A stretch of DNA of 58,499 bases, from contig JASJBF010000036.1 in the NCBI GenBank assembly GCA_030066685.1, positions 1 to 58,499 of the forward strand. The letters run 5' to 3'. Shown piece by piece: positions 27,122-35,034 of the stretch (positions are counted from its first letter, which is position 1; each line of letters opens with the position of its first letter). Position numbers and translations under genes: made by a program. The notes beneath the pieces were generated by a model. It worked only from the letters and a program-made list of their open reading frames with translations, did no database searches and was not told where the DNA came from. The stretch is from Kiloniellales bacterium. GTDB lineage: Bacteria > Pseudomonadota > Alphaproteobacteria > Kiloniellales > JAKSBE01.

Positions 27122-28738
27122 TCAGCGCAGCCAGACCTCGACGCGCCGGTTGAGCGCCCGGCCGCGCTCGGAATTGTTGCAGGCGACCGGCATGATCTCG
27201 CTGAAGCCCAGAACCTGGAGCTGGCGCCGTGACAGGTCCTGTCCGCTGACCGCCTGCAGGGCGGATCGGACGGTGCGCGCCCGGGCCAGCGACAGCCGCT
27301 GGTTCTCATCGAAGGGACCGGCCGAATCGGCGAATCCGACCAGGAGGACTTGGCGGCCGCGCGCGGTCTCGCGGTCCATTAGGCGGGCCAGGCGGCCGAT
27401 GTCCTGAAGGGCCTTGTTGTCCAGCTCGCTGGAGCCCGAGCGGAAGCGGAAGGTCGTCGACAGCCTCTCGGCGGTGCTCAGGGACGAGGTTGCGTTCCGC
27501 ATCATCTCCATGTTGAAGCTGTCCGAAGTCGCGCCCAGCGCCGCGGCCAGGCGATCGCCCTGCTGGCTGAACGGGAGCCGGTCCGCCGTCTGGTCGATGA
27601 AGCCGACGTCGACGATGATGTCCTGCGCGTCTTCGGAAAGGGCGTACTCCAAAAGCTGCTTGCCGTACGGCGCGGCCAGGTTCGGCGTGGTGTACAGGAA
27701 GAGGCGCCGGGACAGCGGATATTCCTCGGTCTTGACGGCGAAGGTCGAGGGCTTTTGAACGATGCCGCAGCCGCTGGCGATGGCCAGCGACTTCGCGTTG
27801 CGCTGATAGGCGATGCCGGTAAAGCCGATGCCCAGGGGATCGCCGGCGACGGCGTCGGAGAGCTCGGCGTTGGATTCGAAGCGGCGCGCCTCCCCGGAGA
27901 TCTTGCGCCTGGCCGGCTTAAGGACCAGCGAATTGAAGGTGTCGTAGGTGCCCGACTTGTCGTCCCGGGCATAGAGGTTGATCCGGCCCGGCGCCAGGCC
28001 GAGCTCGGCCCAGTCGGTGATCTCGCCGGCGAAGACCCGGGCGAGGTCGGCGCTCGCGATGCTGGTCAAGGGGTTCGCCGGGGCGACGATCACCAGCAGC
28101 CCGTCGAGCGCCAGGATGTGCTCGCGGCCGGGCGCCGACATGCCAAGGAAGCCGGCGAGGTCCATGAAGGTCAGCTCCTTCTCCTTGATCGGGCGCGACG
28201 ACATGCCGATCTGCGCCTCGCCCCTGGCCAGGGCCGGGAAGGAGGTGCCGGAGCCGTGCGAGCGCAGGTCGACGACGGAGAGCTTCTTGCCATCGCTCGC
28301 GAACAGCTCCATCCGGATCTCTTCCGGATTGTCGCCGACCCGCTTCACGACCTTGGCGCCGATGGTCTCGGCGTAGCCTTCGATCAGCGCCGGCATCAGC
28401 CGGGCGCCGATCGTGTTGGAGCCGTGGATTCCGAAGTCCGGCCCGGCGCTCAGGGCCGCCACCTGGGCCGGCGCCGCGCCCGGGCAGGCGCCGCCGACGC
28501 AATCGAACTTGTTGCGCGCGAGGCGCAGGGTGCCGAGGTTCTCCAAGGCGACGGTGTAGCTGTTCTCGTCGAAGCCGAGCAGTTCGCCGGTGAACACGAC
28601 CTGCGAACCGGTCATCTGCAGGGTGACCTCATCGGCGGCGGCGCGCGCTTGCAGGAGGAGCGCGGCGCCCAGGACCAGAGCCGTTCCGAGGATCATGCCG
28701 GACCGCGAGAGCGGCCGCCCAATTGCCCGAGCCATCAT
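27122..28738 (-). CDS. PstS-like phosphate-binding domain fused to OmpA peptidoglycan-binding domain
   Basis: A 538-aa exported protein. A signal peptide (MILGTALVLGAALLLQARAA) is followed by a small beta domain (VTLQMTGSQVVFTGELLGF to RNKFDCVGGACPG). A PstS-type binding domain follows (about aa 100-370): GIHGSNTIGARLMPALIEGY, VDLRSHGSGTSFPALARGEA, IGMSSRPIKEKEL, VFAGEITDWAELG, ARDDKSGTYDTFNSLVL and GDPLGIGFTGIAYQRN. An OmpA C-terminal domain (about aa 420-538) has TTFRFRSGSSELDNKALQDI, VLLVGFADSAGPFDENQRLS and NSERGRALNRRVEVWL. The fusion would hold a phosphate-type anion binder on the cell wall. It lies 37 bases downstream of the secreted-protein gene, and both lie behind a Pho box. No PstCAB is present. 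Confidence 0.85.
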   Translation of the reverse strand: MMARAIGRPLSRSGMILGTALVLGAALLLQARAAADEVTLQMTGSQVVFTGELLGFDENSYTVALENLGTLRLARNKFDCVGGACPGAAPAQVAALSAGPDFGIHGSNTIGARLMPALIEGYAETIGAKVVKRVGDNPEEIRMELFASDGKKLSVVDLRSHGSGTSFPALARGEAQIGMSSRPIKEKELTFMDLAGFLGMSAPGREHILALDGLLVIVAPANPLTSIASADLARVFAGEITDWAELGLAPGRINLYARDDKSGTYDTFNSLVLKPARRKISGEARRFESNAELSDAVAGDPLGIGFTGIAYQRNAKSLAIASGCGIVQKPSTFAVKTEEYPLSRRLFLYTTPNLAAPYGKQLLEYALSEDAQDIIVDVGFIDQTADRLPFSQQGDRLAAALGATSDSFNMEMMRNATSSLSTAERLSTTFRFRSGSSELDNKALQDIGRLARLMDRETARGRQVLLVGFADSAGPFDENQRLSLARARTVRSALQAVSGQDLSRRQLQVLGFSEIMPVACNNSERGRALNRRVEVWLR

Positions 28739-31710: not shown

Positions 31711-31839
31711 AGTCTCTCCTGACCTTTGTCGTCCTTGTCCGGCCCCCTGTTTAGCAGGCGGGCCGAAGCCTGGCATCCCTCTCCTACCGCTCCGGCGCGG
31801 GGCCCTGATGGCACGGCTCCATGCTGTAGCCCATGACCT

Positions 31840-31915
31840 GCAAAAGGGAATAAATTCAATGTATTGGTTGGGGTTATGTGAAATTCATTACATATTAATT
31901 CGTGTTTCCTACAAG
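31840..31915 (+). promoter_or_regulatory. AT-rich promoter region of the peroxidase operon
   Basis: A sharp AT-rich island in GC-rich DNA, with TTGGTT near 31864 and TACATA near 31889 as imperfect -35 and -10 elements (spacing 19). The whole gap 31711-31995 holds no gene. The composition is the main evidence; the hexamers are weak. Confidence 0.35.
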
Positions 31916-31995
31916 AGAGCCTGTTTTTGACTTTGGAATTCCAACGAAGCCCTCCCGATTAGTACGCGCGGGCCAGTCAACAACGGGAAGTCGAA

Positions 31996-33009
31996 ATGAT
32001 GAACAGGAAGACTCTGAGTCTTGTCCTGCCGGTGGCGGCCGGATTGGCGCTCGGCGGACTCACCCTGACGCCGCTTCCCGGCGTCGCCCAGACGGCCAAC
32101 CAGCAGGCCCTAGCGGTCAGAAGCTCGCCGATCCAGCCCCTGAGCCAGCAGCTGCAGCTGAACCGGGAAAAGGTGGTCCTGGGCGAGAAGCTGTTCTTCG
32201 ACCCCCGCCTGTCCCGGGACAATACGATCTCCTGCGCCAGCTGCCACGACATCGCGGCCGGCGGCGCGGATGCGATCGACTTCTCGGTGGGCATCGGGGG
32301 GGCGCGGACCACGGTCAACTCGCCGACCGTGCTCAACAGCGGCCTGAACTTCGCCCAGTTCTGGGACGGCCGCGCCGAGACGCTGGAAGAGCAGATCGAC
32401 GGCCCGGTGCACCATCCGGGCGAGATGGGCTCGAACTGGCAAGAGGTCCTGAGCAAGCTGCGGACCGTGCCCGAGTACGTCGCTGCCTTCGACCGCATCT
32501 ATCCCGGCGGCATGCAGATCCAGAACGTCAAGGACGCGATCGCGACCTACGAGCGCTCGCTGATCACGCCGAATGCCCGCTTCGACCGCTACCTCAACGG
32601 CGACAACGCGGCGATCAACGAGGAGGAGCGGGCCGGCTACGAGCTCTTCTCCTCGCTGGGCTGCGTCTCCTGCCACCAGGGCCGTGGCGTCGGCGGTAAC
32701 ATGTTCCAGCGCTTCGGCGTGGTCGGGAACTACTTCAAGGACCGGGGCAACATCACCCAGGCCGATTACGGCCGCTACAACGTCACCGGCGACGACGACG
32801 ACCTGCACGTCTTCAAGGTGCCGTCCCTGCGCAACGTCGAGCTGACCGCCCCCTATCTGCACGACGGTTCCGCCGAGACCCTGGAGGCCGTGGTCCAGAT
32901 CATGGCCCGCTACCAGATCGGCCAGGAGCTCCAGGATCGGGAGGTCAGTCAGATCGTGGCCTTCCTGAAGACTCTCACCGGCGAATTGGAGGCCCAAGGC
33001 AATGAGTAA
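31996..33009 (+). CDS. Dihaem cytochrome c peroxidase (CcpA/MauG family)
   Basis: A 337-aa periplasmic protein with signal peptide (LVLPVAAGLALGGLTLTPLP, cut near GVAQ). Two haem sites are present: TISCASCHDIAAGG (N-terminal, peroxidatic or low-potential) and SLGCVSCHQGRGVGGNMFQR (C-terminal). Other family marks are LGEKLFFDPRLSRDN, SPTVLNSGLNFAQFWDGRAE, GPVHHPGEMG, VKDAIATYERSLI, KVPSLRNVELTAPYLHDGSA and a C-terminal KTLTGELEAQ. These proteins reduce H2O2 or, as MauG-like members, oxidise protein side chains. Its end overlaps the DAHL-protein start by eight bases, so they are translationally coupled. That odd partner makes a modifying or signalling role worth considering. Confidence 0.92.
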   Translation: MMNRKTLSLVLPVAAGLALGGLTLTPLPGVAQTANQQALAVRSSPIQPLSQQLQLNREKVVLGEKLFFDPRLSRDNTISCASCHDIAAGGADAIDFSVGIGGARTTVNSPTVLNSGLNFAQFWDGRAETLEEQIDGPVHHPGEMGSNWQEVLSKLRTVPEYVAAFDRIYPGGMQIQNVKDAIATYERSLITPNARFDRYLNGDNAAINEEERAGYELFSSLGCVSCHQGRGVGGNMFQRFGVVGNYFKDRGNITQADYGRYNVTGDDDDLHVFKVPSLRNVELTAPYLHDGSAETLEAVVQIMARYQIGQELQDREVSQIVAFLKTLTGELEAQGNE

Positions 33010-33913
33010 GCTCCGTCTCTTCCACGGCGTCGCCATCTTGGCGGCGGCCGGCGCAGCCGGCTTCTTCCTTTCCCAGAGCCAGTGGCTCGGCGCCAGCGCC
33101 GAATCCGAGACCCTGACGCAGCTGCAGCAGCTCAAGCAGTACGACGCCGCGCTCAACCAGGAGGCCCTCAAGGTCCGCTCCGGCCTGGTGCAGCACTACG
33201 ATCCCCTGGTCCAGGCCACCTACCGGGTCGCCGACGTGGTGATCGCGCTGCAGAACACCGAGACCGGAATCGTCGGCAAGGGCAACCGCGACATCGACCA
33301 GCTGGTCAAGCAGTACGCGCAGCTCTACGAGAAGCGGGTGACCATCACCGAGCGCTTCAAGGCCCGCAACTCGACCCTGCGGAACTCGCTGTTCTACTTC
33401 CCGACCGCGGCCACCTTGTTCATCAAGCGCGCCCAGGAGAACAAGGCCCCGCAGGCCATGATCGTCACCACCGAGCAGATGCTGCGCGACCTTCTGAGCT
33501 TCTACGTCAACGGCAACCCCGACATGCACGACCGGGTCCAGAAGGGCCTCCACGAGCTGAGCCGTCTGTCGGACGAGGCGCCCGAGGCGATGGAGCGGGA
33601 GATCACCGGCCTGATGAAGCACGCCAGCATCGTCCTGCGCCACAAGAAGCAGGTCGACGACATGCTGGTCCAGATCACCTCGCCGGAGAGCCTCTCGGTC
33701 CTGGACTCGCTCGTTCACGTCTACCAGGAGCAGCTCAATTCCGGCCAGAGCAGCCTGGAGCTGTATCGCGGCGGCTTCTATGTCAGCGTGACCGCCCTGA
33801 TCTGCTACCTGATCTTCCTGATCGCCGGGATCCTGCGCCGCGATTCCGGTGACCGGGGCGACGCCGCGCGGATCGCCGGCCGGCCGGTCCTTGCATCCGA
33901 CCGGGCGGCTTGA
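33002..33913 (+). CDS. DAHL-domain membrane protein without a kinase
   Basis: A 303-aa protein with two membrane helices: N-terminal (GVAILAAAGAAGFFLSQSQW) and C-terminal (GGFYVSVTALICYLIFLIAG, about aa 258-279). About 230 periplasmic, almost fully helical residues lie between them: YDAALNQEALKVRSGLVQHY, DPLVQATYRVADVVIALQNT, then TITERFKARNSTLRNSLFYF with PTAATLFIK, a DAHL (double all-helical ligand-binding) signature. DAHL domains usually form the sensor of histidine kinases; here only 25 residues follow the last helix and no kinase domain is present. It is coupled to the peroxidase before it and leads to the FGE-fold gene after it. It may be a scaffold or ligand-sensing partner. The function is unproven. 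Confidence 0.8.
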   Translation: MSKLRLFHGVAILAAAGAAGFFLSQSQWLGASAESETLTQLQQLKQYDAALNQEALKVRSGLVQHYDPLVQATYRVADVVIALQNTETGIVGKGNRDIDQLVKQYAQLYEKRVTITERFKARNSTLRNSLFYFPTAATLFIKRAQENKAPQAMIVTTEQMLRDLLSFYVNGNPDMHDRVQKGLHELSRLSDEAPEAMEREITGLMKHASIVLRHKKQVDDMLVQITSPESLSVLDSLVHVYQEQLNSGQSSLELYRGGFYVSVTALICYLIFLIAGILRRDSGDRGDAARIAGRPVLASDRAA

Positions 33914-33951
33914 CCCGGTCCCGACGGGAACTATCCGGGAGGAGCCTTGCA

Positions 33952-35034
33952 ATGTCGAAGTCGTGCCGCATCCTCGCGCTGGGCCTCAGCCTTCTGATCG
34001 GGCTCGGCATCCTGCCCGCCGGCGCCGGCATGTTGTCAGTCGAGCAGCTCCAGGCCGACGTCGAGCTGCTGGTCGACGCCGAGATCCATCAGCGCCCCAT
34101 GGCGGACTCGCCGCAGATCGGGATCCTGCTCAGCGGTTCCCAGGTCCGGGTCACCGGCCGCATCACCGGCACCGAGTGGTTCCGGATCTCGACCCAGGAG
34201 ACGCCGATCGGCTACGTCAGGCAGGATGTCCTGAACCCCAAGGACAGCGAGGCGCTGGGCCTGGTACGAAGCCCCCGCGAGGTGCAGGTCGCTGCGGTCC
34301 AGACGACGGTGGTGCCGGGCGAAGCCTTCACCGACTGCGACGGCTGCCCGCGGATGATCACCCTGCCCCCGGGGAGCTTCATCATGGGCTCCAACGAGGG
34401 CGACATCGCGGAGCGGCCGGAGCGCCACGTGACCCTGGCCAAGGTCTTCGCCATCGGCAAGTACGAGGTCAGCGTCGCCGAGTGGATGCTCTGCGTGAAC
34501 GACGGCGGCTGCAGCTTCTCGCCCAAGGCGGTCGCCCGGCCTGAGATGACGCCGGTCCGCAACATCTCTTGGCAGGACGCCCAGCAGTACGTGCAGTGGC
34601 TGAGCACCAAGACCGGCAAGCCCTATCGACTGCCCAGCGAGGCGGAATGGGAATACGCCGCCCGTGCCGGCAGCCAGAGCGGCTACTGGTGGGGCGGACA
34701 GCCCGAGCCCGGCAAGGCCGACTGCAAGGACTGCGGCAGCGAGTGGAGCCGGAAGCGCCCGGCCGGCATGGGCCGCTTCGAGGCCAATCCCTTCGGTCTG
34801 CACGACATGAACGGCGGGGTCGCCGAATGGACCGCAGACTGCTGGTTCCGGACCTACAAGAACGCGCCCAAGGACGGCACGCCCCGGATCGAGGACGGCT
34901 GCGAGGAGCGGGTCCTGCGCGGCGGCTCCTGGCGCGACACGGCCGACGCCATCAAGGCCACCTCGCGCCAGGGCTCCGAGGAGAACCTGCCCTACGTGGT
35001 CAACGGCTTCCGGATCGCCCGCAGCCCCGAGTGA
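33952..35034 (+). CDS. SH3-like plus FGE/SUMF1-fold secreted protein, no catalytic cysteines
   Basis: A 360-aa exported protein from ATG 33952 (GGAGGAGCC upstream). Signal peptide LALGLSLLIGLGILPAGAG. Bacterial SH3-like domain about aa 35-95 (AEIHQRPMADSPQIGILLSG to GYVRQDVL). The formylglycine-generating-enzyme fold follows, about aa 118-358: FIMGSNEGDIAERPERHVTL, PVRNISWQDAQQYVQWLSTK, TGKPYRLPSEAEWEYAARAG, GLHDMNGGVAEWTADCW, RVLRGGSWRDTADAIKAT and NGFRIARS. True FGEs need a Cys pair shortly after RGGSW; here that region has none, so this is probably a binding, not an enzymatic, domain. It is the third gene of the peroxidase/DAHL unit, 38 bases behind the DAHL gene. Confidence 0.85.
   Translation: MSKSCRILALGLSLLIGLGILPAGAGMLSVEQLQADVELLVDAEIHQRPMADSPQIGILLSGSQVRVTGRITGTEWFRISTQETPIGYVRQDVLNPKDSEALGLVRSPREVQVAAVQTTVVPGEAFTDCDGCPRMITLPPGSFIMGSNEGDIAERPERHVTLAKVFAIGKYEVSVAEWMLCVNDGGCSFSPKAVARPEMTPVRNISWQDAQQYVQWLSTKTGKPYRLPSEAEWEYAARAGSQSGYWWGGQPEPGKADCKDCGSEWSRKRPAGMGRFEANPFGLHDMNGGVAEWTADCWFRTYKNAPKDGTPRIEDGCEERVLRGGSWRDTADAIKATSRQGSEENLPYVVNGFRIARSPE

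Follow-up and report, generated by a model that had tools for sequence, protein, structure and literature searches.

The closest described counterparts of the locus analysed here come from Campylobacter jejuni, in which docA lies immediately upstream of docB and both genes matter for chick colonisation, while the cytochrome c peroxidases (CCPs) of this organism, DocA included, make no contribution to peroxide resistance, according to PMC3156733. Other sources indicate that the promoter region used to complement tlp10 is that upstream of ccpA (PMC4444964), that Tlp10 bears a DAHL domain (PMC9796306) and that DocA (Cj0020) is nearer to the tri-haem quinol peroxidases than to the classical CCP (PMC5656828). 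We compared with these a stretch of 58,499 nucleotides, hereafter the window, from a Kiloniellales bacterium (assembly GCA_030066685.1, contig JASJBF010000036.1, positions 1 to 58,499), which carries a CCP gene, a DAHL gene and a gene with the fold of formylglycine-generating enzyme (FGE) in succession:

31996–33009, + strand: exported di-haem CCP/MauG-family protein (Pfam CCP_MauG, E 1.1e-58)
33002–33913, + strand: DAHL protein, its domain lying between two membrane helices, without cytoplasmic output (Pfam DAHL, E 3.1e-43)
33952–35034, + strand: exported protein with SH3_3 and FGE-fold (PvdO-like) domains, the lineage-specific third gene (Pfam FGE-sulfatase, E 1.3e-51; SH3_3, E 1.4e-7)

As in docA-docB (ccpA1-tlp10), whose docB we take to be Cj0019, a CCP gene stands immediately upstream of a DAHL receptor gene, a likeness drawn from published descriptions and not from sequence. 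The two loci differ in that docB encodes a chemoreceptor, whereas the window DAHL protein has no output and is followed by a third gene. An earlier note on this DNA knew of no described system with these three components; docA-docB is a described CCP-DAHL gene pair, although a general pairing of the two families was stated nowhere that we found. The open-licence literature, whose coverage does not extend to the main Tlp10 paper, yielded no such statement, so that priority is not claimable, and the word 'peroxidase' is absent from the main text of a paper on Tlp diversity (PMC6433261). We read the window CCP and DAHL genes as a form, lacking output, of a widespread module of two genes, haem protein and receptor, with the FGE gene as a lineage-specific addition, and assign this reading a probability of roughly 0.5.

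The pairing of the two genes is supported by searches that started from DAHL. With the window DAHL protein as query, 398 genomes of the phylum yielded 45 matches, spread over 34 of them; all 30 loci fetched from these 45 (L007–L036, the window included) have a same-strand CCP gene immediately upstream. Wider neighbourhoods showed the same arrangement in 19/19 cases, 16 of which are places already among the 30. In the contig collection, no relative turned up with the single window DAHL sequence as query, and a 15-row DAHL alignment was too divergent, but a 5-row alignment worked, and the best 80 of its 160 relatives were kept. A strict position rule placed CCP upstream in 72 of these best 80, and seven more have a CCP frame that overlaps the stop-to-stop frame of DAHL; a profile-based recount gave 79/80, the CCP being a piece cut by the contig end at L151, L163 and L178. 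All three plasmid matches, from Gloeocapsa and Vitreoscilla (by annotation) and Rhizobium sullae (by search), one of them cyanobacterial, carry the pair. This adjacency is far beyond chance, and the order of CCP and DAHL, whose loss in other genomes the earlier note named as a refutation, is kept. The module has also multiplied within a single genome (G096), in which five DAHL matches each adjoin a CCP gene (loci L092–L094 and contigs C25 and C36).

The reverse search gave a concordant picture. When 200 genomes were searched with the window CCP, DAHL followed directly downstream in 44 of the 46 top-ranked matches (window included, E up to 1.5e-82), the two unlinked ones being G095 (L259, with three CxxCH motifs) and G158 (L260). 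Among lower-ranked matches, four were DAHL-linked (G121, G125, G141 and G173:C445), and all 34 of those chosen for having no known link (L271–L305 without L302) were unlinked. For residue counts we used 189 of 194 distinct CCP sequences, dropping five (L070, L126, L270, L274 and L302) that had less than 900 bases downstream and no DAHL; pieces shorter than 240 residues were ignored, and because distinctness is by sequence, one place may count twice. In a tree of these rows, thinned to 137 at 80% identity, 96 linked and three unlinked CCPs form one group with a Shimodaira–Hasegawa-like approximate likelihood ratio test (SH-aLRT) value of 80, and only two label changes are needed, compared with a mean of 35.3 after shuffling. 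The unlinked members of this group are a long branch with two CxxCH motifs (L279) and two proteins, 478 and 486 residues long, that each have three CxxCH motifs; one DAHL-linked CCP frame also carries three. The published likeness of DocA to the tri-haem quinol peroxidases (PMC5656828) fits this tree.

The window CCP falls among the DAHL-linked CCPs and shares their residue change at the place of the distal haem ligand. It has CxxCH at residues 80 and 223 and, of the features of a classical bacterial CCP, retains the two haem motifs, the bridging Trp, the catalytic Glu and the Met ligand, but has Ile at the place of the distal His. We take this His of the peroxidatic haem to be His71 in Pseudomonas aeruginosa numbering, and the residue roles and numbering used here are likewise assumed. 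The distal His is present in 1/136 linked and 41/53 unlinked CCPs (1/96 and 29/41 after thinning), a contrast that is partly due to shared ancestry since the rows are related to one another. Trp is retained in 189/189, Glu in 119/136 linked and 51/53 unlinked, and the Met ligand in 134/136 linked and 47/53 unlinked CCPs. Among solved CCPs, His occupies the distal place in 1iqc, 3o5c, 1nml and 1zzh but not in 9qdt, the best match. The missing distal His thus marks a wider group that includes tri-haem forms and not DAHL linkage alone.

The window DAHL protein has 303 residues and ends 25 residues past its second hydrophobic segment (260–278). The earlier description of it as a DAHL protein free of a kinase held up, as Pfam gave DAHL and no other domain up to E 0.1, and thus no cytoplasmic output domain of a sensor histidine kinase, cyclase or chemoreceptor. 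No second DAHL match was found elsewhere in the window genome. In ten other DAHL proteins scanned with Pfam, HATPase was present in eight, some of which add HisKA, response-regulator or Hpt domains, GGDEF in one, and PAS only in one with a split-looking frame. Pairs of CCP with a DAHL kinase or diguanylate cyclase (L091 and L092; L191 and L192 by annotation) share with the window the gene order, the DAHL domain and a CCP group mostly without distal His; they differ in that their DAHL proteins are much longer, with a cytoplasmic output where scanned, and in that no FGE gene was found beside them. Among 147 distinct DAHL frames, 59 run past the fetched stretch; of the remaining 88, five are shorter than 450 residues, and only those of the window and L187 are both output-less and intact-looking. 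In L187, from Oceanospirillales strain Hp36, a CCP gene overlaps a 276-aa DAHL-only gene, as in the window; this pair differs in that no FGE gene was found in its stretch, and its sequence similarity to the window is low.

Other candidates for an output-less form were rejected. A PAS domain is present in L097, next to which lies an overlapping frame of kinase size; L163 is a fragment whose contig also carries a long DAHL frame; an overlapping frame of 853 aa comes after L256/L306; and the short frame of L006/L229 looks split, an overlapping 347-aa frame coming next. G316 (365 aa) was set aside as a weak match without CCP.

An AlphaFold2 model of the window DAHL protein, built from a 40-row alignment, is all helical with a mean predicted local distance difference test score (pLDDT) of 91.9. 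A search of the PDB with its sequence gave nothing credible, whereas the best solved folds against the model were McpS (Z 18.4; root mean square deviation (rmsd) 2.8, 203 residues aligned), PilJ (16.6), TorS (15.8) and TorS from the TorT complex (14.8), consistent with a predicted HBM/TorS-like receptor fold of two stacked helical bundles. Z scores of ~12 to 14 are also reached in this list by helical proteins that seem unrelated, and Foldseek scores for the McpS-, PilJ- and TorS-type matches are modest (best E 9e-4, template modelling (TM) scores 0.35 to 0.53). The McpS, PilJ and TorS matches stand out from those helical proteins, but a resemblance of fold does not by itself reveal function. 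The TorS sensor fold (Z 15.8, rmsd 3.2, 207 residues) offers a precedent, as a periplasmic partner, TorT, binds this receptor in solved complexes; TorS differs in having a kinase, and TorT is not known to be a haem protein. DAHL may also be linked to VirA, with ChvE as the partner.

Several observations weigh against the module reading. The fork that defines the linked CCP group has a support of only 80, tri-haem CCPs without DAHL nest inside that group, and the linked CCPs may still be enzymes because Trp and Glu are mostly retained. As the linked rows were mostly gathered via DAHL, their number is biased, and the search from the CCP side, with its 46 rows, gives the fairer test. DAHL loci without CCP also exist. 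In the order, DAHL occurs in 6/61 genomes, and the five matches besides the window (L002–L006, 38 to 55 bits), all from one genus, have no CCP nearby, wider surroundings having been checked for three. A class sample gave 16 DAHL matches in 14/385 genomes, with CCP upstream in nine (the window included) and absent from seven: L003, L050 (a short stretch) and L044–L048, which score under the cut-off and include one with a CCP fragment. In a second class (25 matches in 19/48 genomes), 20/25 were CCP-linked, and the five unlinked were L210, L217 and L218, at 61 to 63 bits, together with L211 and L212, which fall below the cut-off. The sole CCP-free locus among the best 80 is L124, from a Methylotenera bin, and the weak CCP-free match of G316 stands second or third from the bottom of the 45-match list, among the 15 matches outside the 30 loci, of which some were also retrieved. 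Except for L124, the CCP-free loci score low for DAHL, with ≤63 bits wherever the family model served as query and some values below the cut-off. CCP pairing is therefore near-constant among high-scoring DAHL domains and absent from lower-scoring branches, and the module as proposed here does not claim the latter.

At L124 (4687–5730, + strand), a gene for a response-regulator/HD-domain protein stands upstream of DAHL in place of CCP. The input of the lower-scoring DAHL proteins without CCP (L002–L006, L229–L231, L210, L217 and L218) may differ; the one scanned with Pfam is a histidine kinase.

The best-surviving alternative is that the DAHL protein only holds the CCP near an electron donor, the pair acting as a membrane-anchored peroxidase that removes or respires H2O2 as the tri-haem quinol peroxidases do. 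The missing output of the window DAHL protein, the Trp, Glu and Met ligand retained in its CCP and the position of the tri-haem CCPs in the tree all fit such a role. However, 9/10 of the other scanned DAHL proteins have a fused HATPase or GGDEF domain, Glu is missing in 17/136 linked CCPs, and the peroxide-resistance result for the C. jejuni CCPs (PMC3156733) points away from peroxide removal. We consider this explanation unlikely.

Somewhat less likely still is that the locus is a decaying remnant, left after the receptor lost its kinase and kept only by chance. This would account for the rarity of output-less DAHL frames, shared only with L187, and for the absence of the operon from both congeners, but the coding sequences themselves argue against it. 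GC content at third codon positions (GC3) is 0.92, 0.94 and 0.93 in the CCP, DAHL and FGE genes, and at second positions (GC2) 0.42, 0.39 and 0.51 (FGE frame counted from 33910); because these values resemble those of the adjoining genes, the three appear to be intact coding genes, with strong codon bias. The window DAHL protein also keeps the residues invariant in 40 rows, a second output-less pair exists, and the next gene begins 38 bases on.

Rechecking confirmed the coordinates and strands previously assigned to the trio, as well as the 8-base overlap of the CCP and DAHL frames and the 38-base gap between the DAHL stop and the FGE ATG. Hydropathy gave a single N-terminal hydrophobic segment in the CCP and likewise in the FGE protein, and two in the DAHL protein (6–24 and 260–278). 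A ribosome-binding-like stretch, GGGAGGAG, precedes the FGE ATG at 33952, and the gene-like frames flanking the trio on either side are on the opposite strand. Scans for promoters and terminators gave nothing useful, the sole promoter-like site being on the opposite strand and terminator-like sites numbering two against 1.5 expected. Judged from this layout, the three genes form one compact + strand unit that is probably co-transcribed.

Neither congener gave a DAHL match, the assembly being 81% complete in one and 10% contaminated in the other. DNA comparison delimited the missing segment:

31784–34953, no strand: stretch absent from congener G002, and nearly the same in G001; the flanks adjoin there

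The sites that correspond to 31783 and 34954 of the window are separated by 23 bases in G002, and those corresponding to 31779 and 34980 by 20 bases in G001. The operon was probably deleted in the congeners, as both retain the end of the FGE gene (the last 81 bases in G002 and about 55 in G001). Loss of an ancestral operon through a deletion common to the congeners explains these data best, insertion in the lineage of the window being the possible alternative.

A complex of all three proteins, with the FGE protein as a ligand binder common to the CCP and DAHL proteins, was the original proposal for this locus. It has in its favour the common strand, the 38-base gap, the ribosome-binding-like stretch and the fact that the segment missing in the congeners spans all three genes except the FGE tail, although joint deletion of neighbours is no proof of joint function. 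The comparative evidence went against it. Near DAHL, 102 fetched stretches of 3.5 to 20 kb each contained no FGE homologue at E up to 0.01, and these represent 99 distinct places of which 98 are CCP-paired, so that FGE adjacency to the pair is seen in the window only and, unlike the CCP-DAHL order, the FGE position is not conserved. Relatives of the FGE protein occur in 48/58 genomes of the order, and the window genome has a further copy, 51% identical, near a DUF4399 gene; six stretches around relatives from the order contained no CCP or DAHL match. The relatives adjoin genes of other kinds, and a caspase domain is fused to one of them. The three-part system is accordingly doubtful, a shade more so than decay.

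The window FGE protein shares the FGE-sulfatase domain of the PvdO/FGE (SUMF1) family, with PvdO as the best solved match (E 3.9e-36) and a common DCxxCP motif, but has an extra SH3 domain and lacks the FGE Cys pair. We take the catalytic pair of FGE to sit near the C-terminus; the nine Cys of the window protein include none past residue 317, and the last precedes the GGSW motif, so that it does not qualify as a formylglycine-generating enzyme. Most likely it is a lineage-specific extra, a putative binding protein recruited from an expanded local family. Within that family, the caspase-fused SH3-FGE relative (Peptidase_C14; L233:7596–9740, – strand) has a protein-kinase gene and a DUF4399 gene nearby, and another SH3-FGE relative (L110:9398–10570, + strand) also has a DUF4399 gene nearby.

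A MauG-like maturation, with side chains of DAHL or FGE oxidised by the haem protein, would suit the Pfam family name CCP_MauG but is very improbable, as the second haem has Met and not the Tyr ligand that we take MauG to have in its place, and similarity to MauG (E about 1e-24) is far below that to solved CCPs (E 1e-84 to 1e-65).

Elsewhere in the window, one protein (27122–28738, – strand) fuses a PBP-like domain to an OmpA domain (Pfam).

In the usual form of the two-gene module, we propose that the periplasmic CCP, through its redox or ligand state, would dock on the periplasmic DAHL domain and thereby alter the activity of whichever output is fused to it (kinase, diguanylate cyclase or chemoreceptor), in the manner of TorT on TorS. 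Because the window receptor ends just past its second membrane helix, the window pair would be restricted to the periplasm or to acting through another membrane signalling protein; within the periplasm, its DAHL protein may serve as a membrane anchor or regulator of the haem protein, and the FGE protein would probably be a binding protein made from the same transcript. In a more general form, which we hold tentatively and at slightly less than even odds, di-haem CCPs without distal His, and sometimes without Glu, would form a distinct group that acts in the periplasm as haem co-receptors dedicated to DAHL receptors, whose outputs (kinase, cyclase or chemoreceptor) would be interchangeable. This would apply to Pseudomonadota, one cyanobacterium and one Poribacteria bin, the window form being output-stripped and wholly periplasmic.

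The module, known but little noticed, deserves follow-up more than the trio of the window itself. If the co-receptor reading is true, it would explain why DocA has a role in colonisation but not in peroxide resistance, as reported in PMC3156733. If the gene pairing reflects a partnership, proteins annotated as peroxide-removing enzymes would partly be signalling parts, and many DAHL receptors (160 relatives in one scan) would gain a testable input. The output-less form would provide a minimal system for docking tests without a kinase.

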